Assembly: GCA_017395365.1 (NCBI GenBank)
Contig: JAFPUN010000010.1
Span: 1 to 56,214, forward strand
Direction of reading: 5' to 3'
From: Bacteroidales bacterium
GTDB lineage: Bacteria > Bacteroidota > Bacteroidia > Bacteroidales > F082
Length of the DNA: 56,214 nt
In this document: one piece after another, positions 6,040 to 27,806 of the stretch
Layout: every line of letters starts with the position of its first letter
Numbering within the stretch: the stretch's first letter is position 1
Notes under the pieces: generated by a model
The model's input: the letters and a program-made list of their open reading frames with translations, nothing else
Told to the model about the DNA's origin: nothing
Databases searched by the model: none
Translations under genes and position numbers: made by a program

Positions 6040-6051
6040 AGATTAATTTTC

Positions 6052-6059: not shown

Positions 6060-6070
6060 CGAAAAAATCA

Positions 6071-6100: not shown

Positions 6101-6112
6101 ACCGAATTGTCT

Positions 6113-6907: not shown

Positions 6908-6909
6908 TC

Positions 6910-6983: not shown

Positions 6984-6992
6984 ACAAACACA

Positions 6993-7433: not shown

Positions 7434-7493
7434 TTTCTGCGCAAAACTTCCCATTCTGCGCAACATCATTGGCCATTTTGACAGCAAAAACGG

Positions 7494-7501
7494 TAATTTT
7501 G
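7494..7501 (+). promoter_or_regulatory. -7 box TAATTTTG placed for a (nearly) leaderless transcript
   Basis: The box ends 5 nt before the ATG at 7507. With the usual spacing, the start of transcription falls 1-2 nt before the start codon. Confidence 0.5.
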
Positions 7502-7506
7502 CCGCC

Positions 7507-8181: not shown

Positions 8182-8775
8182 CACCTGCCGCTGTACCCAA
8201 GCGAAGACAACAATGGCAGCAACGGTGGAAATCTCCAACAGCAAGTAAGCCCACAACTGATCAGGCTCGAAAAGCAGCACGACAATGACTGGCAACAGAC
8301 TGGAAATCAATATATAGAGCACCATCCAGATGCCTACCTGACGAAGCCGTCCCCGATAGTTGATGGCGATGGCACTGCCCAAGGGCAGATAGACGAGCAT
8401 CAGCGAAACGGCGACGGGAAGGCCGACGCTATCGGAGATGGATGGGATGCTGTCCGTCAGGAAACCCGCAAAGTTGAGCACGATGACGAGCCACCACCAC
8501 ACCGTAAACGGACGATAGAGCGACTTCATGCCTCGCATCAGGCCAATATACATCACCATGGAGCCAAAAGTCCTGACAATGCCGCTCAACCACGCGAGAC
8601 GATGACCTTCCATCCAAAGCGACACATCCGTCCAACTGACAACAGCCTGCAAGAGATAGCTCACGAAAGCCGCCTCGATGAGCCAGCGGGGCAGGCCGCT
8701 TTCAACGTGGTTCACAAGGTATTGGTTCTCAATCTTTTCCATCTGCTCGATGGGATGCTGTCGGGTTGTTTCCAT
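8173..8775 (-). CDS. Polytopic membrane protein, unknown
   Basis: 200 residues with about five or six hydrophobic helices (for example residues ~31-50, 60-82, 91-108, 118-140, 146-168 and 173-194). The N-terminal ~25 residues are polar and cytoplasmic in appearance. I recognise no family motif. It is convergent with the AraC-type regulator and overlaps it by 9 nt at the 3' ends. A TATTTTTG box at 8781-8788 lies only 5 nt before the ATG, which suggests a leaderless message. No function can be assigned. Confidence 0.65.
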   Translation of the reverse strand: METTRQHPIEQMEKIENQYLVNHVESGLPRWLIEAAFVSYLLQAVVSWTDVSLWMEGHRLAWLSGIVRTFGSMVMYIGLMRGMKSLYRPFTVWWWLVIVLNFAGFLTDSIPSISDSVGLPVAVSLMLVYLPLGSAIAINYRGRLRQVGIWMVLYILISSLLPVIVVLLFEPDQLWAYLLLEISTVAAIVVFAWVQRQVLI

Positions 8776-8780
8776 GGCTG

Positions 8781-8788
8781 CAAAAATA
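8781..8788 (-). promoter_or_regulatory. -7 box TATTTTTG, 5 nt before the ATG
   Basis: The box reads TATTTTTGCAGCC then ATG on the minus strand. The predicted transcription start is 2 nt upstream of the start codon. Confidence 0.5.
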
Positions 8789-8929
8789 AGGTTTTATTCC
8801 GACAAAAAGCTCAAAAATGTTTTATTTGTCATATTCCCTGTTGATTCGGAAAAGCGGAGATTTTGCGCAAAATCGCACTTTCTGCGCAGCAAGTCGAAAA
8901 AAATTCCGAAACAAGTCGAGGGCGAATGT

Positions 8930-8937
8930 TACTTTTG
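8930..8937 (+). promoter_or_regulatory. -7 box TACTTTTG of the hydrolase-LRR operon
   Basis: A consensus TAnnTTTG lies 41 nt before the ATG at 8979. The upstream -33 TTG is not clear. Confidence 0.5.
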
Positions 8938-8978
8938 CCAGCTTTTAGAAACTACTGTACATTTTAAACACTTATTCC

Positions 8979-10535: not shown

Positions 10536-10538
10536 ACT

Positions 10539-10544
10539 AGGAGG
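10539..10544 (+). promoter_or_regulatory. Shine-Dalgarno AGGAGG before the LRR gene
   Basis: A perfect AGGAGG lies 8 nt before the ATG at 10553. Most starts in this window have no such site, so it is unusual here and fixes the start. Confidence 0.7.
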
Positions 10545-10552
10545 ACAAAGCC

Positions 10553-13500
10553 ATGAGAAAGATATTATCAGCCATCGCATTACTGCTTGCGACCGTTGCC
10601 GCACAAGCCACCGTAATACGAACCAGTGTCAATCTGCCTCTTGAAGGCGGGACGGTGTCAACAAAAGTCGTGCTGAACACCGACACCCACACCGCCTCCA
10701 TCGGATGGGACTACGACGCCTGCATTCCGCAGTATTCCGTAGGGAAACTGAACATCCCCTCTACCATCACTTACGAAGGAGAGACCTACACCGTCACGGC
10801 CATCGCCAATGTGGCCTTCCGCTTCTGCAGCCAACTGACGGAGGTGGAGATTGAAGAAGGCGTGACCACCATCGGCAACTACGCTTTCATAGGTTGCAGC
10901 AACCTTGAGGCCATCAGCCTGCCCTCATCGCTCACCAACATCGGCGGCGGCGCCTTCTGCGGATTGTCGAAGCTGACCGCCATCAAGGAGTGCGCCACCA
11001 CGCCGCCCGCATGGGCTTGGTACGATGTGCTGCAAGTCAGCGGCGGCACCGAAGGAGTCAACAGCAATTTGAAGCTCTATGTGCCCAATGGCAGCCAAAG
11101 CGCTTACCTTAACGCCAAGTGGGACTATTCATGGACGTGCATGAACACAAACAACGTGCCATACACTTGGGACCTTACCGAGACCCGCTCACAGGTAGGT
11201 TGGGGCAGCTACTTCGATGCCAATACCATCCTCACGTTAGAGGAGTGGAACCAACACCGCAGCATCAACATCTTCAGCGTGGCCGACCTGAAGGCCTTCC
11301 GCGACATGGTGAACAATGGCACCACCTATAATAATTACATCATCACTTTGGAGGCCGACCTCGACCTGAACAACGAGGAATGGACTCCCATCGGACGCGT
11401 CGAACAAAATCTTTCAAACCTGTACCACGACTTCTGCGGCACCTTCGATGGCAAGGGGCACACCATCAAGAACCTTAGGATTTCAGAAGAATCGCACAAT
11501 AGTGGACTTTTCGGCGGCACACGCAATGCCACAATCAAGAGACTCATCGTGGAGGATGCCTCCGTGGCAGGCGATTTCTATGTGGGCATTGTCATCGGCC
11601 ATGCCGAAGGCACGACCATCATACAAGACACCTATGTGAAGAACTGCACCGTGAGTGGACGTAGCTTCACAGGCGGCATCGTAGGCGGTGCCGTCAATTA
11701 TGACAACGTAGACAACTGTGACCTGCAAATGGACCGGTGTGTGATAGAAGGTGGTTCGGTCAGTTCCTTCTATAATCATTACAAGCCCGATATAACGAAT
11801 AACCAGCCTTTCTGGGAAAGTTACCCGTTCTATGGCACCGTTGGCGGACTTATTGGCTATGTCGATTGCGCCAAGGTTCAGAATTGTGCCAACTTGAACA
11901 CAAAGGTCTTTTGGGATTCCAGCCAGGTGAATGATGAATACGGAGAAGAACTCAGAAAGACTGTCACCCGAGGCGCACTCATCGGCTACCAGCAAAACAA
12001 TGCCACCACTCCTCCTGCCATGTCGAATTGCTACGTTCTGCTTCATCCGGAAAACAGCCTCACTGCCACAGATTATATGGTGAGCGCTCATAAAGACTAT
12101 TTGGATCCAGACCGTTATTACGGCAACGCATATTATTCGGGCGGCTATACCCACTGGAGCTACGATGAAAACACGTTGGCCAATAGCGGAAATGCAAGCG
12201 AACTCAACGGCTTGCAATTGCAATCGACGTTAGGCACCACCGCTTGGGGTTATACTGACGAACAACTCCCTCTGCCCGCCAATTTCGCTTACCTGTTTGG
12301 CGATATCCCTGTCAACAAGGCGGCCTTTTTGCCTTACGGCACCGAAATCGATGCCCCCAACTACCTAACTTTGACCGAGAACGGCACCGCTTACACGGCC
12401 AGTAGCATCCACGTCAACAAATATTTTGTTGGTTTAGAGAATTATTTGCCTCTCGGTTCCAGTCAAATCACCGTTGCGAATGGTGTCGTCAACGGAATCA
12501 CACTCAGCGCAACAACGAATGGCACGCAGGAGGTCACCACTGAGTATCCTGTTTATGTGAAAGACGAAAACAATATGCTCGTCCTCGACCCGCATGGCAA
12601 CCCCGTGCAAGCCACCAACGATGACGGCACGCCCATGACGGAATCCTTCACCGAAACGGTAAACACCTACACACCAAAAGGTTATACACTTTATTTGCCG
12701 TACAGCATCACCCTTTCAGGCGACTGCAAAGTGTATGAGCCAACCTCCTGGGACGTAAGCACAAGCAAGTTGAACTTCACCCGTGTGGAAAACAACGAGG
12801 TGGAGGCCTACAAGCCTTACTATGTCGTGGTCAACAAGGGCGAGATAAGCCTCAATACCTACACCGAACATGTTATCGCAACGCAATCAACCCATACTTT
12901 CACGCTTGATGATGTCTCTTTCACTATAATAGGAGCTTTGAATGGAGACATTTTCGGCACTTCTAATTACTACATCTTTAATAACGGTCAGTGGGTAAAA
13001 ACTTCATTAGGGAGCACGCTCGACGCATTCACTTTCTATATCCAAAACAACCAGGCAAACCCCGGTGAGTCTTTCGGCATCAACTTGATAGACAACACCG
13101 TCATCAACCTGGCCGTGACAGGCCATGGCGGCAGCAACGGCGGCTGGGCATTCATCGCCTCGCCGGTGGCGGACGACATCGCACCTTCTATGGTGGAAAA
13201 CCTTGAGGGAGTGAAGTATGAGACAGGCACGTACAACTACGACCTCTACCGCTTCAACCAAAGCGCCGACTTGGAATGGGAAAACTACCACTCGAACGAC
13301 ACGCCACAGAATCCTTTCATGCTCGAGAACGGCAAGGGCTATCTCTACGCCTCCAAGGCTGATAGAACGTTGACTTTCAGCACACCCTTCAACACCGACA
13401 ACACCAAGACCTTCGATCTCGAATACGATGCCGACGCCGAGTTTGCCGGTTGGAACCTTGTCGGCAATCCTTTCCCCGTGGCGGCCTACGCCGACAAGAG

Positions 13501-14275
13501 CTACTACACGATGAATGAGGCGGGAACGGGCATTGAGCCGATAGCAGTTTCTTCGGCGATGCCCATCGATGCATGCACCGGCGTGATGGTGAAAGCCCAA
13601 ACGACAGGCGAAACGGTCACCTTCAGCCGCACGGCGCAGCAAAGCACGGGCAACAACGGAATGATCCAGATTGCCGTGGCGCAAGCCAACACGCGCGTTA
13701 ACGCCATTCAGGACAAGGCTATCGTGAGCTTCAACGAAGGCTCACAATTAGGCAAATACTACTTCGGCAGACAAAACGCCAACATCTATCTCCCGCAGGG
13801 CGGTGAGGAATATGCCATTGCCTTCAGCGACGGCCACGGCGAAATGCCCTTGAACTTCAAGGCCACGAAGGACGGCGAATACACCCTTTCCGTCGCCCCC
13901 GACGGCGTGGAGATGGAATACCTGCACCTTATTGACAATCTGACGGGTGCGAATGTGGATTTGACAGCTACGCCTCAATACACCTTCACCGCCAAGACGA
14001 CGGACTACGCTTCGCGTTTCCGCCTTGTGTTTTCCATTTGTGAGGACGCAAATGGCGACAATGCGCCGTTTGCCTACGTCAGCAATGGGAAAATCATCCT
14101 CACCACCAACGTGAATGGCAATGCGACGTTGCAAATCGTGGACGTGACGGGGCGTGTCATTGTTCAGGGAGACGCGATAAATCGCGTCTCTACAAGCGGA
14201 ATGACATCTGGTATATATGTCTTGCGCCTCATCAACGGCGATGACGTCAGAACGCAGAAAATCGTCATTCCATAG
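10553..14275 (+). CDS. Large secreted LRR/GLUG surface protein with T9SS sorting domain
   Basis: 1240 residues. A signal peptide (ILSAIALLLATVAAQA) is followed by BspA-type leucine-rich repeats (~60-150: LTEVEIEEGVTTIGNYAF, LEAISLPSSLTNIGGGAF), then a GLUG-like region (~290-400: GTFDGKGHTIKNLRI, GGIVGGAVNYDN), a long beta-rich middle, and a C-terminal T9SS sorting domain ending GIYVLRLINGDD...KIVIP. BspA-type LRR proteins are adhesins or mucin/host-binding surface proteins; the binding partner here is unknown. A family B repeat (14170-14196) adds GDAINRVSTSG in frame in the sorting domain, between GRVIVQ and MTSGIYVL. It is the second gene of an operon and converges with the ClC gene, leaving only 10 nt between them. 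Confidence 0.82.
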   Translation: MRKILSAIALLLATVAAQATVIRTSVNLPLEGGTVSTKVVLNTDTHTASIGWDYDACIPQYSVGKLNIPSTITYEGETYTVTAIANVAFRFCSQLTEVEIEEGVTTIGNYAFIGCSNLEAISLPSSLTNIGGGAFCGLSKLTAIKECATTPPAWAWYDVLQVSGGTEGVNSNLKLYVPNGSQSAYLNAKWDYSWTCMNTNNVPYTWDLTETRSQVGWGSYFDANTILTLEEWNQHRSINIFSVADLKAFRDMVNNGTTYNNYIITLEADLDLNNEEWTPIGRVEQNLSNLYHDFCGTFDGKGHTIKNLRISEESHNSGLFGGTRNATIKRLIVEDASVAGDFYVGIVIGHAEGTTIIQDTYVKNCTVSGRSFTGGIVGGAVNYDNVDNCDLQMDRCVIEGGSVSSFYNHYKPDITNNQPFWESYPFYGTVGGLIGYVDCAKVQNCANLNTKVFWDSSQVNDEYGEELRKTVTRGALIGYQQNNATTPPAMSNCYVLLHPENSLTATDYMVSAHKDYLDPDRYYGNAYYSGGYTHWSYDENTLANSGNASELNGLQLQSTLGTTAWGYTDEQLPLPANFAYLFGDIPVNKAAFLPYGTEIDAPNYLTLTENGTAYTASSIHVNKYFVGLENYLPLGSSQITVANGVVNGITLSATTNGTQEVTTEYPVYVKDENNMLVLDPHGNPVQATNDDGTPMTESFTETVNTYTPKGYTLYLPYSITLSGDCKVYEPTSWDVSTSKLNFTRVENNEVEAYKPYYVVVNKGEISLNTYTEHVIATQSTHTFTLDDVSFTIIGALNGDIFGTSNYYIFNNGQWVKTSLGSTLDAFTFYIQNNQANPGESFGINLIDNTVINLAVTGHGGSNGGWAFIASPVADDIAPSMVENLEGVKYETGTYNYDLYRFNQSADLEWENYHSNDTPQNPFMLENGKGYLYASKADRTLTFSTPFNTDNTKTFDLEYDADAEFAGWNLVGNPFPVAAYADKSYYTMNEAGTGIEPIAVSSAMPIDACTGVMVKAQTTGETVTFSRTAQQSTGNNGMIQIAVAQANTRVNAIQDKAIVSFNEGSQLGKYYFGRQNANIYLPQGGEEYAIAFSDGHGEMPLNFKATKDGEYTLSVAPDGVEMEYLHLIDNLTGANVDLTATPQYTFTAKTTDYASRFRLVFSICEDANGDNAPFAYVSNGKIILTTNVNGNATLQIVDVTGRVIVQGDAINRVSTSGMTSGIYVLRLINGDDVRTQKIVIP
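14170..14196. repeat. Family B palindrome, in frame in the LRR protein sorting domain
   Basis: AGACGCGATAAATCGCGTCT and CTACAAG. It is the same arm as 6958-6983 with one base changed (TAA for TGA before ATCGCG). In this frame it reads DAINRVST. Confidence 0.85.
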
Positions 14276-14285
14276 CCCTACAAAC

Positions 14286-16076
14286 CTATTCCTCCGAAAT
14301 CTCGCTCACCATGCTGCGGTAGGCCGAAAACACATTGGCACGCGAGATGTAGCCCAGATACTTCCCGTCTTGAATGACCGGGATGTTGTATTTGCCTGAT
14401 TTCTGGAACTTTTGCACGATCTCCTCCATCGCCTCGTCGGGGTGGATGACAACATCGGGGAGGACGGCGAAATTCTGTATCGACTGGTCGTAATACTGCT
14501 CGTCGAAGAGGATGCCGCGCACGTCGTCGAACAAGACGTGACCGCAAAAAACACCCTTCTTGTCGACCACCGGGAAGATATTGCGCTTCGACGACGACAC
14601 CAACGGCAACAAGTCGCGGAAAAGACTGTCAGGATCGATGGGGCTGAAGTTGGTCTCTATCAACTGGTTGATAGCCATCATGTTAAGAATACTCTTGTCT
14701 TTGTTGTGTGTGACCTCCACGCCTTTTTCTGCCACGGCATTGGTATAGATGGAGTGATTGAAAAACAGCCGGTTGATGGCATAGGCCAGGGCAGAAACGA
14801 TCATCAAAGGCACAATAAGGGCATAGCCATTGGTGATTTCGGCAATGAGGAAGATGCCCGTCAAAGGTGCATGAAGCATGCCTGCCACCAATCCGCTCAT
14901 GCCTACGAGAGCAAACTTGGCAGGGTCTAAGTGCCCGATTCCGAGGTAATTGACCAACAATGCAAAGAAAAGCCCAGTGAATGCCCCAATGAACAATGCT
15001 GGAGCAAAGGTGCCACCTACGCCACCTGCACCAAAGGTGAAGGCTGTGGCAAAGGCTTTCAGCAAAATCATGCCCGCAAAGAGTATGATAACCACCAAGT
15101 CGTATTCCTTGAACCTCGCAAACCACGCGTTGCCAAAGACCGGGCTGTAGTCGCCACGCAAAGCCGAGTTGATGGCCTCGTAGCCCTCGCCGTAAAGTGC
15201 TGGAAACAAGAAAATAAGGATACCCAACAGTGTACCTCCAACGAGGAAACGAACCCATGGCGACTGCACCTTCTTGAAGCGCTTTTCCACACTAAAAGTC
15301 ACCTTGAGGAAATAGGCCGACACCAGACCCGCAAAGAGGCCCAAGCCGACATAAAACAAGGCATTGCTTGGAATGAACCCCTCGGCGATGACAGCAGGAT
15401 ACTCCACCGTCTGGCCAAGGAACCAATAAGCCGTTAAGATGGCGACAAACGAAGAGCAAATGATTGGCACCAAGGCATTGAGCGACAAGTCGATCATGAA
15501 CACCTCCAGGGCAAAGACGATACCCGTTATGGGGGCTTGGAAGATGGCCGCCAAAGCCGCTGCGCCACCCATGCCGATGAGCTGGATGGTGTGTTTGTAG
15601 TCGAGCTTCAAGGCTTGCGCGATGTTGGAGCCTATGCTGCCGCCTGTCGACACGCTCGGACCTTCCAATCCCACCGAGCCACCAAAACCGACCGTCAACG
15701 CGCTGGTAACGATGCTCGACCAGGTGCTACTGCGGCTCACCTTGCCCTTGTTTTTCGAGATGGCATAAAGGATGCCCGGAATGCCGTGCCCGACATCTTT
15801 CTTCAGGATGTACTTGCAGAACAGAATCGTCAGCAGGATACCGATGGCAGGGCAAATGAAATACAACAGGAAGGAATATTGGAACTGCGCGTTGATGACC
15901 AAGTCGCGGATGCCGTGGGCCAGCTTCTTGATGATGACGGCGGCGGCACCAGCGAGGAATCCCGTCGGGATGCTGAGTATCAGCATAAAACGACGGTCAC
16001 TCATGTGCGTCGTACGCCAAGCGTTGAAGCGGTCAATCCACCCGTTGATTCTATCCTTGAATTTACCCACGGTCAT
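14286..16076 (-). CDS. ClC-family chloride channel/transporter with C-terminal CBS pair
   Basis: 596 residues from the ATG at 16076; the open frame runs further up to 16232, but that stretch is repetitive intergenic DNA. Membrane helices run from ~30 to ~430 with the three selectivity-filter signatures: GHGIP (97-100), GSVGLEGP with gating E138, and GGTFAPALFIG. Two CBS domains follow (~450-596), which often bind adenine nucleotides and regulate gating. The position of the internal 'proton glutamate' of ClC antiporters (after FALE, residue 192) is valine, as in ClC channels, and the filter serine is His97. This suggests a channel rather than an H+/Cl- exchanger, but that is inference. Confidence 0.88.
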   Translation of the reverse strand: MTVGKFKDRINGWIDRFNAWRTTHMSDRRFMLILSIPTGFLAGAAAVIIKKLAHGIRDLVINAQFQYSFLLYFICPAIGILLTILFCKYILKKDVGHGIPGILYAISKNKGKVSRSSTWSSIVTSALTVGFGGSVGLEGPSVSTGGSIGSNIAQALKLDYKHTIQLIGMGGAAALAAIFQAPITGIVFALEVFMIDLSLNALVPIICSSFVAILTAYWFLGQTVEYPAVIAEGFIPSNALFYVGLGLFAGLVSAYFLKVTFSVEKRFKKVQSPWVRFLVGGTLLGILIFLFPALYGEGYEAINSALRGDYSPVFGNAWFARFKEYDLVVIILFAGMILLKAFATAFTFGAGGVGGTFAPALFIGAFTGLFFALLVNYLGIGHLDPAKFALVGMSGLVAGMLHAPLTGIFLIAEITNGYALIVPLMIVSALAYAINRLFFNHSIYTNAVAEKGVEVTHNKDKSILNMMAINQLIETNFSPIDPDSLFRDLLPLVSSSKRNIFPVVDKKGVFCGHVLFDDVRGILFDEQYYDQSIQNFAVLPDVVIHPDEAMEEIVQKFQKSGKYNIPVIQDGKYLGYISRANVFSAYRSMVSEISEE

Positions 16077-16154
16077 TCTCGTTTTTCGGCCGCTAAAATA
16101 TAAAAAAGTAACGCGCGCACCGAAAAGAAACAACTTTTTCACTATTTTCGCAGT

Positions 16155-16232
16155 CTCATGGACACGGGACACGAGACTTCGGGACACGAGACATTGGACC
16201 CCGTAGTCCCGCGTCCCGCAGTCCCGCGTCAA
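16155..16232. repeat. Short direct repeats between clc and xth
   Basis: GGGACACGAGAC occurs twice (about 16166-16191), followed by GTCCCGCGTCCCGCAGTCCC-type repeats (16204-16230) that are partly complementary to the first block. They sit in the divergent intergenic region, so hairpins could affect either leader. Function unknown. Confidence 0.6.
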
Positions 16233-16243
16233 AAAAGAACACC

Positions 16244-17005
16244 ATGAAGATCGTCAGCTACAACGTGAACGGCATCCGCGCAGCCATCAACAAAGGCCTG
16301 CTACAATGGATCAACGACTACCAACCCGATGTGCTCTGCTTTCAAGAGTTGAAAGCCACGCCCGACCAGATTCCCTTGATGGACTTCGAGATGATGGGCT
16401 ACCACCACTATTGGTTCCCGGCCCAGAAGAAAGGCTACAGCGGCGTGGGCCTCATCGCGAAAACCGAACCCGACAACGTGGTCTACGGCATGAACGAGCC
16501 TCTGTACGACAACGAAGGCCGCTTCCTCCGTGCCGACTTCGGCGACCTCTCGGTGGTGAGCGTCTACCACCCTTCGGGCACCACGGGCGACGAGCGCCAA
16601 GCCTTCAAGATGGTGTGGCTCGACTTCTTCCGCCGTTATGTCAACGAATTGCGGAAAGAGCGTCCGCAATTGGTGCTTTCGGGCGACTACAACATCTGCC
16701 ACGAGGACATCGACATCAACAACCCGCGCAAGCACGACACCTCGTCGGGGTTCCTACCCGAGGAACGCCAATGGATGACCGACTTCCTCAGCGATGGCTA
16801 CGTCGACTCGTTCCGCCATCTGGTGAAGGAGCCCAACCGCTACAGCTGGTGGAGCTTCCGCGCCGGTGCAAGAGCCAAGAACCTCGGCTGGCGCATCGAC
16901 TACCATATCACGACCGACAACCTGCGCGACCGCATCGCCGGCGTCGACATCCTGCCCGAGGTGATGCAGAGCGACCACTGCCCTATTGTGTTGGAGCTGA
17001 AATAA
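16244..17005 (+). CDS. xth: Exodeoxyribonuclease III (AP endonuclease)
   Basis: 253 residues. The opening MKIVSYNVNGIRAA, the metal ligand E35 in LCFQELKATP, the active-site D148/N150 in SGDYNICH, and the terminal SDHCPIVLEL with D244/H245 form the exonuclease III catalytic set of the endonuclease/exonuclease/phosphatase fold. The enzyme cuts DNA 5' of abasic sites in base excision repair and has 3'-5' exonuclease activity. Length matches the family (about 250-270). It is divergent from clc; a family C palindrome and a tRNA gene follow. Confidence 0.94.
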   Translation: MKIVSYNVNGIRAAINKGLLQWINDYQPDVLCFQELKATPDQIPLMDFEMMGYHHYWFPAQKKGYSGVGLIAKTEPDNVVYGMNEPLYDNEGRFLRADFGDLSVVSVYHPSGTTGDERQAFKMVWLDFFRRYVNELRKERPQLVLSGDYNICHEDIDINNPRKHDTSSGFLPEERQWMTDFLSDGYVDSFRHLVKEPNRYSWWSFRAGARAKNLGWRIDYHITTDNLRDRIAGVDILPEVMQSDHCPIVLELK

Positions 17006-17039
17006 GTATCATCTTTTTCTGTAGCATCACTCTCTTAAG

Positions 17040-17281: not shown

Positions 17282-17353
17282 GGCCTAATAGTTCAAGGGA
17301 TAGAACGGAAGTTTCCTAAACTTTAAATCTAGGTTCGAGTCCTAGTTGGGCTA
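17282..17353 (+). tRNA. tRNA-Arg (anticodon CCT)
   Basis: 72 nt that fold as a cloverleaf: acceptor GGCCTAA pairs with TTGGGCT (two wobbles), D stem GTTC/GAAC, anticodon stem GAAGT/ACTTT with loop TTCCTAA (anticodon CCT), variable loop AAAT, and T arm CTAGG-TTCGAGT-CCTAG. The discriminator is A, and CCA is not encoded. It reads AGG arginine codons. It borders an AT-richer accessory Rhs region, and tRNA 3' ends are common integration sites, though no integrase is seen here. Confidence 0.92.
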
Positions 17354-17362
17354 CAGCACAAC

Positions 17363-17451: not shown

Positions 17452-17682
17452 CTAGGGTTGAAGCACGTCGTTGGGATCATCGGAATGGTATCGGGCCGTG
17501 GGGTCGTAGCTCTGCGGCTGGGGCTGGCGACCATATCCGTCGGCGTACCACCCCGTCGGGTCGGTGTAGCGCAAGGGGTTGTAGCCGCAATAGGCGTAAC
17601 GGTTGAAGGCTTGGGCGCTTGTCGGGTCCTGCACATAGGCGTCCACCGAGAGGAAGCTGCTGGTTAAGGGTGCGTCATTCAT
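17452..17682 (-). pseudogene. Orphan Rhs core-tip fragment (third copy)
   Basis: 76 residues starting MNDAPLTSSFLSVDAY and continuing through the conserved Rhs tip (FNRYAYCGYNPLRYTDPTGW) to DDPNDVL, then QP and stop. The nucleotide block 17461-17669 is nearly identical to blocks at 18912-19176 and 20452-20716. No toxin part follows: the homology stops just before the WGRSVHPC seen in the other copies, and a terminator and tRNA lie beyond. This is probably a leftover of cassette duplication or loss. It could be expressed, but nothing suggests a function alone. Confidence 0.8.
17461..17669. repeat. Rhs tip direct repeat, copy 1 (~209 bp)
   Basis: Nearly identical in nucleotides, including silent positions, to copies 2 and 3. 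This is long enough for homologous recombination. Confidence 0.88.
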
Positions 17683-17693
17683 AGCGGTTCAAT

Positions 17694-18098
17694 TCATTTG
17701 CAAAAACGTAAAGCCATTATGAAACTCACGAGAGAAAAAACAATAAATAAAAGCACCAATATTCCTTTTAGCCAAGTCAGTTTTTCGTTATGGTATTTCT
17801 TCTCTAATTCTTTGTATCTTAGTTTTAAATCTCCCATGAACCGTTCTGCGAAGATATAAAATAAAGCAAACGGAAGTGCCGTGACAATAATTAGACTTTT
17901 GTTTATTTTTAATCCAAGCTCCCATAAGACAAGCGTTTCTATAGATAATGTGTAGGAACATATTGTAGAAACCAGCACTAGCAATCCCCAACTGAAACAA
18001 CTTTGAATTAGAAGATAACCAGGAGCATCTTCTATCCCAAAAATGTTCCTGTAAGCTTTTGCGATTCTGAAATAAATGTATAAAAACAGATTCTTCAT
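17694..18098 (-). CDS. Small membrane protein, candidate immunity protein for the second Rhs tip
   Basis: 134 residues with about three transmembrane helices (~31-50, 66-86, 110-130) and a charged stretch (~88-107, DLKLRYKELEKKYHNEK). I recognise no family. It begins 14 nt downstream of the 394-residue Rhs tip/toxin ORF in the same direction and is noticeably AT-richer than surrounding genes. A small, family-less gene right after an Rhs toxin end is the usual place of the immunity gene. An inner-membrane immunity protein fits a membrane-acting toxin. All of this is inference from context. Confidence 0.6.
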   Translation of the reverse strand: MKNLFLYIYFRIAKAYRNIFGIEDAPGYLLIQSCFSWGLLVLVSTICSYTLSIETLVLWELGLKINKSLIIVTALPFALFYIFAERFMGDLKLRYKELEKKYHNEKLTWLKGILVLLFIVFSLVSFIMALRFCK

Positions 18099-18112
18099 GG
18101 CAGGGACACGGT

Positions 18113-19297
18113 TTATTTAAATGGTTGATAGGCTGGCATGCCTGGATTGATACCCTCTTTCATTAATTCCCCCACAGTATATCCATATTGGAAAACCAAC
18201 TCTCTACCTCCAAAGAACCAGAATGTACTAATAACAGAACCTCCTGGTGCATACCCTAATCCGCCAAAAACCACATCAGCACCATATTTTATTTTATCAT
18301 CAATAGTTCTAGCCGAATAATACTGACCAATAGAAATCCATATTCCAACGGCATTGAGCATGCCAGAAGCCCTCCTGAATTTCTCCCCAATGGCCTTCCC
18401 ATACTTCAATTTTCCACCAGTATATTGGTTCCCATTCTCGGTGAGAGGTCTTCTGTTGCCTTGCCTATCCGTCCACTTCCCAAGAGTCTCACTATAATGA
18501 AGCACTCCTTCAACATAGGTGTACAAACCTGCAACATTTACCATCCAACCCGAAACCCTGGCATTTTGGTTTTCATAGCTCTCAGGAGTCCTGTTTGAGA
18601 GGGTGCAGGCTCCATTTTCATTGCCTCCGTAATATTCCAAATACTTGGCGCTATAGAACTGTCCGGTGGCATCCGTCCAACTATAGGTGGATACACAATA
18701 GCCAGGAATCCCATAAAATTCGCCATAAAGGCATCCAACATTCAATTCAATTCCTAAATCTTCCAATGCCTGGCTGGTCTCCTTGCAGGGATTGTTTCGC
18801 CATGCGAGAATGGCTTTTAGGTGAGATGGGGGAACATTCCCCGTCACGTATCCATTACCAATAGTGTACCCAGCAAAAGTCATGTTAACCTTGTTCATAT
18901 TGCCAGCATCACACGGATGCACGCTCCTTCCCCAAAGTACGTCGTTGGGGTCGTCGGAATGGTATCGGGCCGTGGGGTCGTAGCTCTGCGGCTGGGGTTG
19001 GCGACCATAGCCGTCGGCGTACCACCCCGTCGGGTCGGTATATCGGAGCGGGTTATAGCCGCAATAGGCATAGCGGTTGAAGGCTTGGGCACTTGTCGGG
19101 TCCTGCACGTAGGCGTCCACCGAGAGGAAGCTGCTCGTAAGCGGATCGTAGCAGCGGCCGTTCATGTTAATCAGGTCGAACTCGTCATAATGCTCATGCA
19201 GGGTGTAGCCACGGTCGAAAGTTGCTTCGACAGGCTCTGCAACCGAATAGTTCTGCCATGTGGCTGAGTCTATTATTATTCTTCTTTTAACCGCCAT
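18113..19297 (-). CDS. Displaced Rhs tip with distinct C-terminal (toxin-like) domain
   Basis: 394 residues without a signal peptide. Residues ~29-125 repeat the Rhs tip (FDRGYTLHEHYDEFDLINMN, FNRYAYCGYNPLRYTDPTGW, up to GRSVHPC). The rest (~126-394) is unrelated to the other copy and contains a hydrophobic glycine-rich stretch (YGADVVFGGLGYAPGGSVIS) near residue 350, as in some membrane-active Rhs ends. The toxin identity is unknown. The first residues overlap the end of the preceding lipoprotein gene by 22 nt. A family A repeat (19224-19239) gives AEPVEAT exactly where homology to the main Rhs copy begins. As it stands the tip cannot be exported; it looks like a silent cassette. Confidence 0.78.
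   Translation of the reverse strand: MAVKRRIIIDSATWQNYSVAEPVEATFDRGYTLHEHYDEFDLINMNGRCYDPLTSSFLSVDAYVQDPTSAQAFNRYAYCGYNPLRYTDPTGWYADGYGRQPQPQSYDPTARYHSDDPNDVLWGRSVHPCDAGNMNKVNMTFAGYTIGNGYVTGNVPPSHLKAILAWRNNPCKETSQALEDLGIELNVGCLYGEFYGIPGYCVSTYSWTDATGQFYSAKYLEYYGGNENGACTLSNRTPESYENQNARVSGWMVNVAGLYTYVEGVLHYSETLGKWTDRQGNRRPLTENGNQYTGGKLKYGKAIGEKFRRASGMLNAVGIWISIGQYYSARTIDDKIKYGADVVFGGLGYAPGGSVISTFWFFGGRELVFQYGYTVGELMKEGINPGMPAYQPFK
18912..19176. repeat. Rhs tip direct repeat, copy 2 (~265 bp)
   Basis: This aligns end to end with copy 3 (20452-20716). Both diverge abruptly on the toxin side just after the codons for SVHPC, which marks the exchange boundary. Confidence 0.9.
19224..19239. repeat. 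Family A repeat at the junction of Rhs copy 2
   Basis: GCTTCGACAGGCTCTG, the half-element of family A, reads AEPVEAT on the coding strand. It lies at the upstream edge of the Rhs homology. Confidence 0.6.
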
Positions 19298-19740
19298 TCG
19301 TTTGTTTCGCAGGAGTATTCATAAATATAATAGTCCATACAATGAGGCCAATAACCTAATAATACTTCATCACCATTCATTGTCGCTGTCAAATAGTGTA
19401 TGTATATTTCGATACAGTTCCCTTTCAAATAATAATGAACGTCCAAAATATCGATACCTTGTTCTAAATCATCTTTCAGTTTTGTAATGGTTCCCTTAGA
19501 AACTGTTCGTAAACCAATACTCTCATAGAAAGATTCATTGCATTTGACCTCCTTGGGAGGCAATCCATCTTGGCATAAGAAAAATGGATGCTGTATGGGT
19601 AAGTTTTTAACAAGATGAAGATAATTGTCTCTACTTTTTATTATACTTTCTTCGAGCATTCGGTTAATTTCATTCTCATTTTGTCCGAAAGAGCATGCAT
19701 ATATTAAGATTAGAATAATGGTTATTATCGACTTTCTCAT
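19276..19740 (-). CDS. Small exported lipoprotein, candidate immunity protein of the JAB-tip Rhs
   Basis: 154 residues with a signal sequence (IITIILILIYACSFGQ), possibly lipidated at the cysteine. The rest is soluble, with no family I know. Its ATG overlaps the stop of the 586-residue Rhs ORF (ATGA), the tight coupling typical of toxin-immunity pairs. Its own 3' end overlaps the start of the next Rhs fragment by 22 nt. An envelope location for an immunity protein would suggest the toxin acts in, or enters through, the periplasm. This is inference. Confidence 0.6.
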   Translation of the reverse strand: MRKSIITIILILIYACSFGQNENEINRMLEESIIKSRDNYLHLVKNLPIQHPFFLCQDGLPPKEVKCNESFYESIGLRTVSKGTITKLKDDLEQGIDILDVHYYLKGNCIEIYIHYLTATMNGDEVLLGYWPHCMDYYIYEYSCETNEWRLKEE

Positions 19741-21497
19741 GGTCTGATGAATTTGGTTGGATTAATGAAATCTTGTGTTGTTATTATGGATTGAACCCCT
19801 TTTCTGTTGTAAACGTATACATTTCCGTCTCTTCTGCCGAAAACATAGCACACATGATTTCCTGCAATTGCATAATCATCTGGTGTTGGAGACTGCTGAA
19901 ATATAGTTGTTGAAATATGGTCATCATATACAACGCTCGCACAATTCCCACTAGGGTGACTATGAAATGTCGGATATTCCATCCCTGTAGGGAATTTTAT
20001 ATTTATCTTTTGATCAACGCAAGGACTTTTTACATCTCCTGGTGGAACTTCCATGACAAGACACTCATCAATATACCCTCCATACTCTCTATTATTGCAT
20101 TCTGCGGAACCTCCATTGCCATCGTCTTGAGAAACAATATCATACATTCTATTTCGACCGAAACAGGACGGAAATATTTCTACAAAGCAATTATAGATAT
20201 CATTCCATGTTAAGGTAGTTGCCCCTCCGTCAAAAAAGCTTAAAATGTCATCTTTCATACCCATAACTTCTGGTATTTCTGAACGCAAAACATATACCTT
20301 CCCATTATCATATCTATTGGCACCTAAGAAATCCCCGTTTTGGTCATAAAATCCTCCAACTCCCCCTCGACTCGTCGATGAGTTATTACCTTCCGTATAT
20401 CCCGTACTCGTAACCGCCGTTCCATTAACATACCCCGAAGAGCTATTAACGCACGGATGCACGCTCCTTCCCCAAAGCACGTCGTTGGGGTCGTCGGAAT
20501 GGTATCGGGTTGTGGGGTCGTAGCACTGCGGCTGGGGTTGGCGACCATAGCCGTCGGCGTACCACCCCGTCGGGTCGGTGTAGCGCAAGGGGTTGTAGCC
20601 GCAATAGGCGTAGCGGTTGAAGGCTTGGGCACTTGTCGGGTCCTGCACGTAGGCGTCCACCGAGAGGAAGCTGCTCGTCAAGGGATCGTAGCATCTTCCA
20701 TTCATGTTAATGAGGCCAAAGGCCGTCATGTGTTCGTGGCCTGTGAAGCCGCGGTCGAACATGGGCGTGCCAGAATAACTCCCACTCCATGTCTCGGGGT
20801 CGCGCAGGTTGCCCCAGGCATCGAAGCTCAATTCTTGCACAACGTTGCCCTCGTTATCGGTTATCGTGGTCCACGAGCCGAGGTGGTCCTTCAGGATATA
20901 GTGGATGACTTCCTCGTTGTCCTGCTGTTCTACCACAGCGAAAACGCCGTAGGGGCCTACAAGGTAGGTAAGCGTCTTTTCTGTGGTGTTTTCCCCATCG
21001 TCTTCGGTGATGTATTCGCACACGCCCACGTAGTCCTTTGTTCGTGTTATGTCTCCTATGTTTTCCACCATGCGGATGCGTTGCTGGTCGTGGCCGTAGG
21101 TGTAGGCCAGCGTGTTGCCGCCTTCGGCGATGGTCTTCACCTTGTCGAAGCCCGTGTACGTAATCTCCTGGGGGGCCGAGGGGAACACGCCTTCCACCGT
21201 CTCGGCGCTCGTCATGGCGTGGGGCCGTGAAGGTTGCCCTTGGGCTGCGGCAAATCCTGCATTGGCAAACACGGTCTGCCCGTCGGCCTGCTTGTCGGTC
21301 ATGCGGCCCAGTGGGTCGTAGACGATCTGGCTGTGGGTGTTGCCAAGGTATATGTCGGTCAAACGGTTCATCTTGTCGTAGTGGAAGGTCTCCTCAAGGT
21401 TACGGAGGTTGTCCTTCCGGCTGGCTAAATTACCGAATTTATCGTAACCATACGACAGGTTCTGCAAATTATTTGAGGTGACGATATTAGAGAGCAT
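19737..21497 (-). CDS. Rhs/YD-repeat protein, N-terminally short, with JAB-like C-terminal domain
   Basis: 586 residues. Residues ~1-230 are YD/Rhs repeats (YDKFGNLASRKDN, YDPLGRMTDKQ, GPYGVFAVVEQ, KDHLGSWTTITDNEG), ~255-345 the conserved Rhs tip, and ~346-586 a variable end. The end has FHSHPSG (~510) followed by SPTPDDYAIAG, which resembles the JAMM/JAB metal site (HxH...S/TxxD). JAB peptidases cleave isopeptide or peptide bonds; in an Rhs end it would be a candidate toxin activity. Full Rhs proteins run over 1000 residues with a signal peptide; this one starts inside the shell, 20 nt after a T9SS cargo gene, so it is truncated and export is doubtful. Confidence 0.82.
   Translation of the reverse strand: MLSNIVTSNNLQNLSYGYDKFGNLASRKDNLRNLEETFHYDKMNRLTDIYLGNTHSQIVYDPLGRMTDKQADGQTVFANAGFAAAQGQPSRPHAMTSAETVEGVFPSAPQEITYTGFDKVKTIAEGGNTLAYTYGHDQQRIRMVENIGDITRTKDYVGVCEYITEDDGENTTEKTLTYLVGPYGVFAVVEQQDNEEVIHYILKDHLGSWTTITDNEGNVVQELSFDAWGNLRDPETWSGSYSGTPMFDRGFTGHEHMTAFGLINMNGRCYDPLTSSFLSVDAYVQDPTSAQAFNRYAYCGYNPLRYTDPTGWYADGYGRQPQPQCYDPTTRYHSDDPNDVLWGRSVHPCVNSSSGYVNGTAVTSTGYTEGNNSSTSRGGVGGFYDQNGDFLGANRYDNGKVYVLRSEIPEVMGMKDDILSFFDGGATTLTWNDIYNCFVEIFPSCFGRNRMYDIVSQDDGNGGSAECNNREYGGYIDECLVMEVPPGDVKSPCVDQKINIKFPTGMEYPTFHSHPSGNCASVVYDDHISTTIFQQSPTPDDYAIAGNHVCYVFGRRDGNVYVYNRKGVQSIITTQDFINPTKFIRP
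20452..20716. repeat. Rhs tip direct repeat, copy 3 (~265 bp)
   Basis: This is the copy within the longest Rhs ORF, the presumed acceptor of alternative tips. Upstream of it the conserved core continues; downstream the sequence is unique. Confidence 0.9.
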
Positions 21498-21517
21498 TAG
21501 TATTAATGCTGTTTCCT

Positions 21518-23053
21518 TTATTCCTTCACAAATTTTCCTTCGGCCACCGTGCGGCTTCCGGCGACGATGCGATACAGATACAGACCCGAGGCAAGGTTGC
21601 CCGTATCGAGCCTAATCAGGTTGCCCTCCTGGCCGACGGCACTGTCGAGGCATTTCACACCACCAGCGTCGAACAGCAGGATGCGGGTGTTGTCGGCAAT
21701 GGCTTCCGGAAGCGGAATGTTGATGGCGTCGTTCGTGGGGTTGGGATAGGGCGAAAGTAATGATGCTGTGCTGTTTTCCTCCACCACGTCCCAGGTGATC
21801 TCGATGTCCTCCCTTCTGAACTTCATCAGCATCCCTTGAAACTCCGGGTCACCAGGTTCATTCGTCCCTCTCCGCTTGAGCATCGGCACAAGGCACCCGC
21901 CGTCGTTGAAAGCCGCGGGCTGTCCTGGGCGGAACAGGAACTCGTCATCCCTGAATGCCTTACGCCCCAAAAGGTTGAGATGCTTGTCCACAAGGATCAC
22001 ATTGGCCTGATAGATGTCTGCATATAGCCATTCGGCACAATAGGTGATTGCAAAGATTGTGGTGTCGTCGATGTAGGCCGTGCTGGTACCCCGTGGCATC
22101 CATGCAGTCGAGTCGTAGGGTGGCAGTCGCAATTCTCCGTACACGTTCAATGCCGAATCGATGACGTATAGGGAAGAGTAATAGAAAGTAGTCCGGCGAT
22201 TAAGCTGGACTTTATTGGCGTGAAGTATCAAACGGTCGTCGTCTATCCAATTGCCGTCGGTGGAGATTTCATAAATGGGATCCACTTCGTATCCATATCC
22301 GCCTTGCACCTTATTCAGGTTTTTCCTAGATACGACTTCAAAACCCATGTCGACCACATATATCCCCGGAACGCCCGTGGAGCTCAGGAAATCACCTCCT
22401 TCCACAGCCATCAACAAATTGTCGGAATGCGGCTCATAGGTGATTTCCTCGATGGAACTGGCATAATAGGTCGGAAGCGACTTCATGACAAGTATGTTGA
22501 GTTCTTCGTCCAATTCGTATAGCTGCAAGGCTCGCTGATAATACTCCTGCTCGGTATAGTAGGCAGGTGCGGCGGCAAGGATGACTGTGCCCGAAGGGGA
22601 CAGGATGGAATTCAGCAACATCCCTGAAATGACATAAAAGCAATCGAAAGCTTCGTCCTCAACACTGAAAGTTCTCGAGTTTATCGGCTCCAATTCGCTG
22701 TCGAAGACATCCACGCGGATATATCTTTGGTAGTGTGGGTCACATAGGCTGTCATCGCACACGCCGAATACCATGTAGTTTCCATCGTTAAGCTCCACGG
22801 CGCTGAAATAGTTGAGTATCATGCCTTGTGGGTGTACTAGCCTGTCGATGTGCTCGCCGTCCTTGTCGACTTTCACCAACAGCCCGTGTTTGTTGGACGT
22901 ACAGCCCATGCAAAGTGCCGACTCGCCATCGTCAACCGATATGACATCATTGAGGGCCCATGTGTTTTCCGTCTCTATCTGGACCGTCCATTCCTGGGCG
23001 AACATGGGCTGGCTAAGGACAAACATGAGCGATAGTTGTAGGAATCTTTTCAT
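21518..23053 (-). CDS. Secreted protein with T9SS sorting domain, unknown passenger
   Basis: About 511 residues from the ATG at 23053, which starts a clean signal peptide (MKRFLQLSLMFVLSQPMFAQ); an ATG at 23083 would add ten residues. The body is beta-rich with repeating short motifs and may be a propeller, but I cannot identify it. The last ~85 residues form a sorting domain (SPYPNPTNDAINIPLP ... LASGLYLYRIVAG...KFVKE). A well-formed promoter lies upstream (TTG at 23138-23140, 20 nt, TACTTTTG at 23110-23117). The truncated Rhs gene starts 20 nt downstream and is probably on the same transcript. Confidence 0.78.
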   Translation of the reverse strand: MKRFLQLSLMFVLSQPMFAQEWTVQIETENTWALNDVISVDDGESALCMGCTSNKHGLLVKVDKDGEHIDRLVHPQGMILNYFSAVELNDGNYMVFGVCDDSLCDPHYQRYIRVDVFDSELEPINSRTFSVEDEAFDCFYVISGMLLNSILSPSGTVILAAAPAYYTEQEYYQRALQLYELDEELNILVMKSLPTYYASSIEEITYEPHSDNLLMAVEGGDFLSSTGVPGIYVVDMGFEVVSRKNLNKVQGGYGYEVDPIYEISTDGNWIDDDRLILHANKVQLNRRTTFYYSSLYVIDSALNVYGELRLPPYDSTAWMPRGTSTAYIDDTTIFAITYCAEWLYADIYQANVILVDKHLNLLGRKAFRDDEFLFRPGQPAAFNDGGCLVPMLKRRGTNEPGDPEFQGMLMKFRREDIEITWDVVEENSTASLLSPYPNPTNDAINIPLPEAIADNTRILLFDAGGVKCLDSAVGQEGNLIRLDTGNLASGLYLYRIVAGSRTVAEGKFVKE

Positions 23054-23109
23054 GGCTGTATTCCCTTTCTTTTCTTTTTTCATCGTGTGTTACGTTTAAA
23101 ATCACGATG

Positions 23110-25481: not shown

Positions 25482-27806
25482 ATGAAGCAACTCAACCTCC
25501 TCGCACTCATCATAATGATGGTCTCCTCATTGGCCTCGTTCGCCCAAGACGGCGTCTCCATCGGTAACTGGCGCACCCACCTGCCCTATCAGAAAGTCAT
25601 CGACGTGGAACCCGTCGGCTATAAAATCTATGCCGCCACGCCGTTCGAGCTATTCTACTATGACACACAGGACAACTCCATCAATATCCTGAACAAAATC
25701 AACGGACTGTCGGACATCGGCATCAGCAACATCGGCTACAATGAGAGCCAACGCAAACTGCTCGTCGCCTATGCCAACGCCAATGTCGACCTCGTCTGCC
25801 ACGATGGCGCCATCCATAACATGAGCGACATCAAGGACAAAAACATCGTGGGCAACAAGAGCATCAACAATGTCTTCTTCGACGGCGACCTCGCCTACAT
25901 CGCCTGCGGCTTCGGCATCGTGGTCTTCGACTTGAAAAAGGAAGAGGTGAAAGACACTTATTATATCGGTAACCATGGCGATGCAGTGAATGTCACCGAT
26001 GTGGCCATCTACAGCAACCGCATCTATGCCTCCACCGACGACGGTCTGTATTATGCCGACCTCAACGCCACCAATCTGGCCAACTATGCCTCATGGCATT
26101 TCGACACCAGCGTCCCCCATCCCCACTTGGGCTACACCGAGATGGAAGTCTTCGGTAACAGGCTTTACGTGAATTACGACGGCGGGTTCAACGCCGACAC
26201 GCTCTATGTCCTCAACGGCAGCCAATGGGACTACTTCGACAAGGAGGATGTAACCCAGAAAATGGAGCTCCGCGCTTACAACGACCGCTTCATCACCACT
26301 AACCGCTATGGCGTTAGGGTGTTCGACTACAACCACAACCTGATGCTGAACATCTACTCGCCAGGCGGCTCCATCGAACCCCTCTCGACAGCCTGCGACC
26401 CGAGCGGCAACTATTGGATTGGAGACTTGCGCCGCGGCCTACTCAAGACCAGCGACGGATGGGACAATATGGACGTGAAACCTAACGGCCCTGCCTCACA
26501 AAACGTCTTCGAACTGCAAGCCAGCGGCGACCAGGTATGGATTGCCACCGGAGGCCATGCGTCCAATTGGGGCAAACGCTACATGAAAGAGGGCGTCGCC
26601 CGCTTCGATGGCTCGTGGACCATCCTCAACGCCAACACCCTGCCTGACTTTGGCAACTATTCCGACTTCGTGTGTACCGCCACCGACCCGAAAGACCCTT
26701 CCGTCACCTACGTGGGCACCTGGGGCAACGGCATCCTGAAGTTCAAAGGCAATGAGTTGGTTGAGGTCTATGATGACAGCAACTCCACCTTGCAGCCCTG
26801 GATGCAAGACATGAGTCTCATCAACGTCAGCGGCTTGGCTTTCGACAGCAAAGGCAACCTCTGGGTCGCCAACACTGGTGCACCGTCGCTCCTCTCCGTG
26901 ATGGAACGCAACGGCACTTGGCACGCCTTCAGCCTTGGCGGCAGCCTGAGCGGTATCGACATCGGCACACTCCTCGTCGACAACAACGACTATAAGTGGA
27001 TCATCCGCCGTGGCGGCGAACTCATCGTCTTCAACGAAAACAAGACCTTCGACAATCCCAACGACGACCAAACCGTCACCCTTAACACCGCTACCGGTAG
27101 TGGCCACTTGGCTGGCGCCGTCAACTGCCTCACCGTTGACAATACTGGTGCTGTGTGGGCCGGCACCGACCTTGGACCTTGTCTTTTCGAAGACACCCGC
27201 GCCCTCTTCAACGGCTCGGGCAACTACGACGCCACGCAAAAGAGAGTGCCCCGCAACGATGGCACCGACCAATATGACTACCTTTTTGCCAACACCAACG
27301 TACTCTCCATGGCCGCTATCGAAGGCACCGACCAGATCTGGTTCGGCCTCGAATCGGGCGTCTACCTGATGTCGTTTGAGAAACAACCTACCGAGATTCA
27401 CCACTTCAATGTCGACAACAGCCCGTTGCTCGACAATGCCGTCACCACCATGGCCATCGACAAGAGCGGCGAGGTGTTTTTCGGCACTGCCAACGGCGTC
27501 ATCTCCTACCGTGGCAAAGCCGCGACTCCTGAACCACAAGTCAGTGATGTTGTGGCCTACCCCAACCCTGTCAGAATGGGCTTCAATGGCTTTGTAGGCA
27601 TCAAAGGCTTGGTGTCCAACTCATTGGTGAGAATCACCACCGTCGACGGCACCTTCGTCACCCAGTTGATCTCGGAAGGCGGACAGGCCGTTTGGGACCT
27701 CACTAACATCAACGGCGAGCGCGTCGAACCTGGTGTTTACTACATCTTCGTCAGCACCAAGCGAGGTACCGATAAGTTTGCCACCAAGATTCTGATCATG
27801 AACTGA
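25482..27806 (+). CDS. porZ: PorZ-like T9SS protein (two beta-propellers and CTD)
   Basis: 774 residues with a signal peptide (MMVSSLASFAQ). The start of the mature part (GNWRTHLPYQKVIDVEPVG, then YKIYAATPFELFYY and NGLSDIGISNIGYNE) matches what I recall of PorZ, whose N-terminal half is built of propeller repeats. More propeller motifs follow (GNLWVANTG, GAVWAGTDLG, DQIWFGLESGVYL). The C-terminus (~690-774, VAYPNPVRMGFNG ... PGVYYIFVS) is a sorting-like domain. PorZ works with PorU at the cell surface, bringing A-LPS to the sortase that attaches T9SS cargo, which fits the several T9SS cargo genes here. The stop overlaps the recO start (TGATG). Confidence 0.82.
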   Translation: MKQLNLLALIIMMVSSLASFAQDGVSIGNWRTHLPYQKVIDVEPVGYKIYAATPFELFYYDTQDNSINILNKINGLSDIGISNIGYNESQRKLLVAYANANVDLVCHDGAIHNMSDIKDKNIVGNKSINNVFFDGDLAYIACGFGIVVFDLKKEEVKDTYYIGNHGDAVNVTDVAIYSNRIYASTDDGLYYADLNATNLANYASWHFDTSVPHPHLGYTEMEVFGNRLYVNYDGGFNADTLYVLNGSQWDYFDKEDVTQKMELRAYNDRFITTNRYGVRVFDYNHNLMLNIYSPGGSIEPLSTACDPSGNYWIGDLRRGLLKTSDGWDNMDVKPNGPASQNVFELQASGDQVWIATGGHASNWGKRYMKEGVARFDGSWTILNANTLPDFGNYSDFVCTATDPKDPSVTYVGTWGNGILKFKGNELVEVYDDSNSTLQPWMQDMSLINVSGLAFDSKGNLWVANTGAPSLLSVMERNGTWHAFSLGGSLSGIDIGTLLVDNNDYKWIIRRGGELIVFNENKTFDNPNDDQTVTLNTATGSGHLAGAVNCLTVDNTGAVWAGTDLGPCLFEDTRALFNGSGNYDATQKRVPRNDGTDQYDYLFANTNVLSMAAIEGTDQIWFGLESGVYLMSFEKQPTEIHHFNVDNSPLLDNAVTTMAIDKSGEVFFGTANGVISYRGKAATPEPQVSDVVAYPNPVRMGFNGFVGIKGLVSNSLVRITTVDGTFVTQLISEGGQAVWDLTNINGERVEPGVYYIFVSTKRGTDKFATKILIMN

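Follow-up and report, generated by a model that had tools for sequence, protein, structure and literature searches.

A headless array of Rhs tips and candidate immunity genes in a Bacteroidales genome, probably a silent store of exchangeable toxin ends

Displacement of Rhs C-termini, with arrays of dissociated tips, has been described in Enterobacteriaceae (Jackson 2009, PMC2935791), and in Salmonella the fusion of orphan rhs-CT/rhsI to the main rhs gene has been shown in culture (Koskiniemi 2014, PMC3967940). Orphan-only Rhs are reported for Gilliamella apicola, and in Apibacter the majority of the Rhs genes of this one genus lie beside genes with type IX sorting domains (Steele and Moran 2021, PMC8125069). 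The toxin family Tox-JAB-1 occurs with Imm65 (Zhang 2012, PMC3482391), and TANFOR polymorphic toxins are found near substrates of the type IX secretion system (T9SS; Jana 2020, PMC7073777). The array described below lies on one whole contig (C8, 56,214 bases, hereafter the window) of G000, a draft Bacteroidales genome of 2.11 Mb in 25 contigs, 72.6% complete. On the minus strand, a gene for a type IX-sorted protein (T9g) is followed by an Rhs open reading frame (ORF) without its head (A), a small gene (immA), an orphan tip (B), a second small gene (immB) and a last tip (C), which faces a tRNA-Arg(CCT) gene. The features, with the evidence defining them, are:

21518..23083, minus strand: T9g, a 521-amino-acid (aa) protein with a type IX sorting domain (PF18962, 2.7e-9), which precedes the array
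21477..21519, minus strand: headless junction, from the stop of T9g to the Rhs core; the exact 43-mer is also present in G053:C81 and G052:C59
19737..21497, minus strand: A, headless Rhs ORF of 586 aa, composed of core fragment, tip and JAB-like end (RHS_repeat PF05593, 1.5e-6; TIGR03696, 6.7e-14)
20452..20720, minus strand: tip copy A (repeat search, family D1)
19740..20453, minus strand: JAB-like toxin end, similar to Tox-JAB-1 (HSHPSG, EYGG, ..D; alignment of 5 sequences)
19276..19740, minus strand: immA, exported protein of 154 aa, candidate immunity to A, Imm65-like (alignment of 8)
18113..19297, minus strand: B, orphan tip ORF of 394 aa (TIGR03696, 1.1e-11)
18912..19180, minus strand: tip copy B (repeat search, same family)
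18116..18904, minus strand: B end, candidate toxin with a Gly-rich hydrophobic C-terminal stretch (fused to a full-length Rhs in G023, 74-75% aa identity)
17694..18098, minus strand: immB, hydrophobic protein of 134 aa, candidate immunity to B (adjoins B-end matches; remote likeness to NF053699)
17452..17682, minus strand: C, terminal tip without an end, 76 aa (ORF and repeat search; right junction as in G053:C81)
17282..17354, plus strand: tRNA-Arg(CCT) at the array end (identified beside C)

As in the Enterobacteriaceae arrays (PMC2935791), core fragments of a single clade per locus stand in tandem with unrelated C-termini, and the ends are A+T-rich; in those arrays the tandem copies follow an intact rhs, whereas the leading member of this one is without a head. 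The array is read here, with a probability of roughly 0.7, as a store of Rhs warheads that is silent or close to silent and whose head is missing. As far as genome comparison can show, this reading is carried by the layout, the occurrence of the B end on a full-length Rhs elsewhere, a headless junction common to several loci, and tips in which distant species differ less than they do in a reference gene.

Exactly three tip copies were found by the repeat search, all on the minus strand and belonging to one repeat family; the third spans 17461-17670. In the 198-nt block common to the three, identity is 94.4% for A-B, 94.9% for A-C and 92.4% for B-C, with silent divergence (Ks) of 0.21, 0.21 and 0.42, respectively, and replacement divergence (Ka) of 0.006-0.020, so that the protein has been kept constant while silent sites have shifted. 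An earlier note, made from the letters of the window, had described three near-identical tips differing in everything after the motif SVHPC. Base-by-base alignment agrees as to the number of copies, their nucleotide identity and the near-constant protein, and as to the ends of A and B, which have no similarity to each other past SVHPC; C leaves the other tips earlier, with DPNDVL, then QP and a stop, and never reaches SVHPC, and the silent sites are less alike than the overall identity. That note had taken low silent-site identity as an argument against its reading, and on this point the moderate divergence found gives a mixed outcome. The Ks values rule out a very recent homogenisation of the tips within G000, and nothing in them points to very recent swaps there.

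The NCBIfam Rhs core family TIGR03696 matches A and B above its cut-off, while C, at 32.4 bits, narrowly misses the required 32.5. Exact repeats of 68, 62 and 44 nt are present between the tips. The G+C content is 56-63% in cores and tips, and 33-44% in ends and small genes. The locus is thus composed as displaced tips are, of Rhs-core fragments with distinct ends, those of A and B each with a small gene of its own, and of the endless C.

A short dispersed repeat, GAGCCTGTCGAAGC, lies within the coding sequence of tip B at 19224-19237, with near-copies at 6078 and 45191 (3 found vs 0.02 expected) and a related stretch in the full-length Rhs of G023. Another near-identical pair of Rhs tips (GIWLSVDPMSDKYPSLSPYVYCADNP) is located elsewhere in G000 (L008:5497-8622, contig C20); its two ends, both of Peptidase_M91 type (PF14891), differ from each other, and each is followed by a small gene.

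Related genomes were searched for tips (99 genomes of the genus, E <= 0.001) and for the B end and immB (173 genomes of the family). A tip match was found in 70 of the 99 genomes, and in 41 of the 46 of good quality. The B end gave nine matches, in seven genomes; six of them include its C-terminal half, and an immB-like gene lies directly behind each of these six. A full-length Rhs of G023 (2212 aa, with signal peptide, SpvB and FG-GAP domains) has the B end at its C-terminus; behind it come immB (81% aa identity), an orphan tip bearing a different end, a small gene of 303 aa and another orphan tip. The expectation that the 18113-19297 end might be fused to a full-length Rhs in a related genome was therefore confirmed, with its immB gene in place. 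The orphan end of G023 is in turn attached to a full-length Rhs in G004 (98.8% over 245 aa), where the small gene follows at 96.7% identity, and the same small gene (96.7% to that of G023) follows a partial toxin in G053:C81. The same cassettes are thus encountered attached, orphaned and eroded. Behind the 49 Rhs ORFs of at least 1700 aa present in the stretches fetched from the genus, at least one tip ORF is found in 17 cases, and two or more in 9; these counts are not a rate, as the stretches were picked by us from the tip matches, some of them for their arrays.

Divergence between species was gauged by the Ks of the gene for the SprA N-terminal domain, 2000 SprA windows of tip length being taken for each pair of genomes. 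SprA Ks of G000 is 0.64 to G023, 0.67 to G004 and 0.76 to G027, and the closest tip Ks is 0.154, 0.151 and 0.152, respectively; in none of the three pairs was any of the 2000 SprA windows as low as the tips (for G027 the test used A with G027:C32, Ks 0.154). The same result, 0/2000, was obtained for G023-G053. The nearest relative of tip A is the tip of the G023 full-length Rhs (96.5%, Ks 0.154), closer than A's own neighbours in the array, and that of tip B is its counterpart in G004 (96.0%). For the sister pair G000-G053 the relation is reversed, with a SprA Ks of 0.087, a tip Ks of at least 0.21 and 2000/2000 windows lower than the tips, so that low tip Ks is not simply due to slow silent change. 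SprA Ks between G004 and G023 is 0.58, yet the 98.8% identical toxin is common to both. Between G000 and G023, Ks is 1.16 in the B end, 0.43 in the core and 0.42 in immB, which by these values is a mosaic. Taken together, the tips diverge as would be expected if they are passed between lineages instead of being inherited within them. Plain tandem duplication followed by divergence in one lineage, with no exchange between genomes, would give tandem tips in one orientation and with moderate silent divergence, as observed; it is hardly credible in view of the unrelated ends of A and B, the B end attached in G023, tips closer than SprA between species, and the toxin that G004 and G023 have in common in spite of their SprA divergence.

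More than the tips has been exchanged at this locus. Over window positions 6986-17020, beside the array, identity between G000 and G053 is 72-90% (short better stretches aside), vs 96.5% over 1787-6908, and the flanking xthA has a Ks of 0.47, vs 0.087 for SprA; the exchange thus took in the neighbourhood, and not tips alone. A fusion of two loci of the G053 type was considered as a possible origin of the window; at G053:C52 the right flank has only short matches in G000, and on the left there is no synteny with the window. T9g is 97.8% identical, over 21742-23002, to the T9g at this non-syntenic place, its last part being different; from such matches, type IX-sorted genes of the T9g kind seem to recombine as well. 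The gene at 25482-27806, two genes upstream of the array, has the N-terminal propeller of PorZ (PF21544), a family whose name marks it as a T9SS component.

The alignment of A to the 2212-aa Rhs of G023 starts at about residue 1595, and some 1,595 residues are thus absent from A. The ORF at 19737-21497, which the earlier note had called a short Rhs, is therefore a headless fragment and no complete gene, and the supposed main Rhs, into which tips were to be swapped, lacks its own head; as no intact main rhs stands at the head of the array, the latter is classed as orphan-only. The junction sequence is common to five loci in four genomes (G000, G053:C81, G053:C52, G052:C59 and G004:C99); in G053:C52 and G004:C99 it takes a variant form that lacks the ATG of the other three. 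Past the junction the ends differ, being JAB-like in G000, of another Gly-rich kind in G053:C81 and reduced to short remnants in G004:C99; a common junction with differing ends points to one deletion, or one headless unit, that was spread or inherited while its ends were exchanged. At the other extremity, C is joined to immB on its left side as in the G023 array, and on its right, tRNA side as in G053:C81. Repeats mis-joined in assembly, or a head dropped from it, might be suspected in an incomplete draft of metagenome type, with exact repeats between its tips and a T9g so similar to a non-syntenic one of G053. Such an artefact is very improbable, since the headless junction is found in genomes assembled separately, the right-hand junction recurs in G053:C81, and the tips differ by 5-8%. 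A difference of this size is usually enough for assemblers to separate copies.

The headless A might also be an expressed, working short protein, for instance in an internal toxin/antitoxin pair or as a protein co-exported with T9g. The open frame with its ATG in three of the five headless loci and the Ka/Ks of 0.16 of the core would suit such a role, as would the position of A, whose first codon lies 21 nt past the stop of T9g, at a distance where read-through is possible. A has no visible signal peptide, most of the Rhs shell is lacking in its core, the ATG is missing at G053:C52 and G004:C99, and promoter-like matches (11, vs 7.5 +/- 3.2 in shuffles) are in no meaningful excess; we consider this explanation improbable.

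The first of the two pairs, the JAB-like end with immA, resembles Tox-JAB-1 with Imm65 as far as the alignments go. Of the residues E, HxH, S and D that mark Tox-JAB-1, the HSH and the D are invariant in the five aligned JAB ends and the E of EYGG is found in four; the window copy has T for S, and reads NNRE where the paper gives a spacing of NxxxE for Tox-JAB-1. Pfam has no match for the window JAB end, and a profile search of the PDB with it gave a match at chance level only. An immA-like gene lies directly behind all five matches that cover the JAB domain; the remaining 6 of the 11 rows cover no more than the constant region that precedes the end. The motif YSC, corresponding to the YxC of Imm65, is present in 8/8 aligned immA sequences. 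No Pfam family was found for the window immA at E <= 10, nor any immunity family among the 10 families listed for the eight members; in the absence of an Imm65 profile match, immA was not assigned to Imm65. Its description as a lipoprotein is doubtful: a lipobox (IYAC) is plausible in the window copy, but conservation of its cysteine does not extend to the seven aligned homologues, several of which have ordinary-looking signal peptides.

For the second pair, no known toxin family was found for the B end in Pfam, NCBIfam or PDB sequences. Four of ten immB homologues match the Bfi1 immunity family NF053699 (best E 4.7e-4), while the window immB scores 9.9 bits, below the curated cut-off of 100 bits; PADLOC gave a single weak match, to immB (E 0.051). 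The B end and its hydrophobic partner suggest, and do no more than suggest, a membrane-acting toxin. The profile searches proposed in the earlier note thus left the B end, the window JAB end and immA without a family, and immB only remotely similar to Bfi1.

Homologues of both small genes also occur away from Rhs, which the earlier note had counted as an argument against its model. In fetched stretches of 4-11 kb, no Rhs is present for 12 of 22 immB matches (29-42% identity) and 5 of 12 immA matches, whereas all five immB relatives with at least 47% identity adjoin an Rhs tip or a B-type end. As immunity genes are known to occur by themselves, lone copies do not refute a store of tips. Those scanned lie among ordinary chromosomal genes (transporters, GTPases, O-antigen and similar); an immunity island linked to a recombinase was considered and rejected, no recombinase being found among the 10 neighbours scanned. 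At L103 and L106, an immA-like and an immB-like gene stand together without Rhs, between genes of O-antigen ligase and FKBP type.

The lone copies would also agree with an explanation in which selection keeps the immunity genes, the tips and ends being relics that travel along and are being lost. Loci that look like stages of such a loss exist: G083:C22 has T9g and then an immB-like gene with no Rhs, G004:C99 keeps 70 Rhs residues and 23 of a B-type end before immB, G053:C81 has only a partial toxin before its immunity gene, and tip C has no end. The ends of A and B are nevertheless long open frames in which Ka/Ks is 0.14 (B end) and 0.10 (JAB end, Ks saturated), ratios that mix both branches and do not speak for the branch of this strain alone, and the histidines and the aspartate of the JAB end are retained. 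Decay of this kind is rather unlikely, if clearly worth keeping in mind.

Several results weigh against a silent reservoir fed by exchange. No full-length Rhs of the array's family was found in the assembly of G000, although at 72.6% completeness one could be missing from it. The headless core evolves like a full-length core, which is unlike pure decay. A recombination test on 13 tips (pairwise incompatibility of neighbouring sites, after two divergent tips, G053C81_1 and G052_1, had been dropped) was not significant (P = 0.61; 129/435 site pairs incompatible). Between G004 and G027 the tips are no different from SprA (1093/2000), and the closest tip pairs were chosen out of several, which favours low Ks. 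Of the proposal in the earlier note that silent tips and immunity genes are swapped into an Rhs gene, the displaced-tip array is upheld, with the B end on the full-length Rhs of G023 and immB directly behind it, while the acceptor gene is missing from the G000 assembly.

The silent reservoir probably arose as follows. In relatives, the complete locus consists of type IX-sorted genes, a small protein with YD repeat and sorting domain, and an Rhs of 2.0-2.3 kaa, predicted to be secreted, with SpvB, FG-GAP and RHS regions and a putative toxin at its end; a candidate immunity gene and then cassettes of orphan tip, end and immunity gene follow. From the window, roughly 1,595 residues at the start of the Rhs are gone together with the small partner, which leaves headless A with immA, orphan B with immB, and tip C. 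Homologous recombination in the tip block would move the cassettes of end and immunity gene, the ends being putative toxins and the small genes their putative immunity genes. Without renewed attachment to a head, A and B would presumably not be delivered by this strain.

The small partner was examined outside the window, in which both it and the Rhs head are absent. An ORF is located at -124 to +52 nt upstream of 47 of the 49 long Rhs; all 47 carry a type IX sorting domain (Pfam), and 46 the motif YD..GNR (one visible YD repeat), the exception being cut by a contig end. For the 48th Rhs (L132) both motifs lie on an overlapping ORF, and the 49th is truncated where its contig stops. In a control on the 1383 ORFs of 100-260 aa in the same stretches, 41 carry YD..GN together with PNP, and 41/41 are directly upstream of a long Rhs. 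The partner proteins comprise 46 distinct sequences out of 47, some of the source genomes being close kin; an example is L041:15793-16248. Partners also exist in other families of the phylum. In a sample of the phylum, the SpvB region was matched in 18 of 395 genomes. Among the loci of 30 of the 33 matches, 23 have an upstream ORF with YD, 22 of these with a PNP/PVP motif as well, and seven have no YD partner, two of them in a different kind of ORF of about 3,400 aa.

SprA is present in 95 of the 99 genomes of the genus, G000 included. Genes for the sheath of the type VI secretion system (T6SS) were searched with PF05943 and also with PF17541, because the former alone would miss the Bacteroidetes form: PF05943 was found in 0/99 genomes and PF17541, above cut-off, in 13/99, neither of them in G000 at its 72.6% completeness, and the PF17541 matches include none in G000, G023, G053, G004, G027 or G052. 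T6SS delivery of these Rhs is thus ruled against, no sheath gene being found in G000 and few in the genus. We tentatively propose, at somewhat less than even odds, a two-protein type IX cargo in T9SS-bearing Bacteroidota, in which a dedicated partner with its one Rhs-like YD repeat would dock on the SpvB-type Rhs shell and lend it the sorting domain, while tip arrays, orphan-only ones included, would supply interchangeable warheads across species. A YD-repeat partner of Rhs is not named in the open-licence literature searched, which is weak evidence of absence.

On the reservoir reading, tip displacement, best studied in the PAAR-type Rhs of Enterobacteriaceae, would operate in the SpvB-type Rhs of gut Bacteroidales, the same ends being attached and orphan in related species, and a headless store could persist. 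The adaptor, if real, would make Rhs export from Bacteroidota without a T6SS directly testable.

Compared with the described systems, the locus differs from the arrays of PMC2935791 also in its host, a member of the Bacteroidota, and in the Rhs of its relatives, which are SpvB-type and not PAAR-type. With Salmonella (PMC3967940) it shares an orphan end with an immunity gene, the same end being found on a full-length Rhs elsewhere; here the evidence is genome comparison only, and no main rhs was found in the G000 assembly. Tox-JAB-1/Imm65 (PMC3482391) is likewise found in Bacteroidetes, with an N-terminal RHS, JAB-type residues and an exported partner with YxC; the window departs from it in NNRE instead of NxxxE, T for S, and a lipobox unconserved among homologues. 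TANFOR toxins (PMC7073777) are similar in being Bacteroidetes toxins with signal peptides, near T9SS substrates and with T9SS export proposed, but have a different N-terminal domain, and a SprB-repeat rather than a YD-repeat partner. The Apibacter genes (PMC8125069) differ in that the passages cited mention no YD repeat in the partner. On the passages cited, every main element of the array is already covered by known systems, the adjacency of Rhs and T9SS-sorted genes having been published for Apibacter; the partner with YD repeat and sorting domain, outside the window, is the least familiar result and possibly a new detail.

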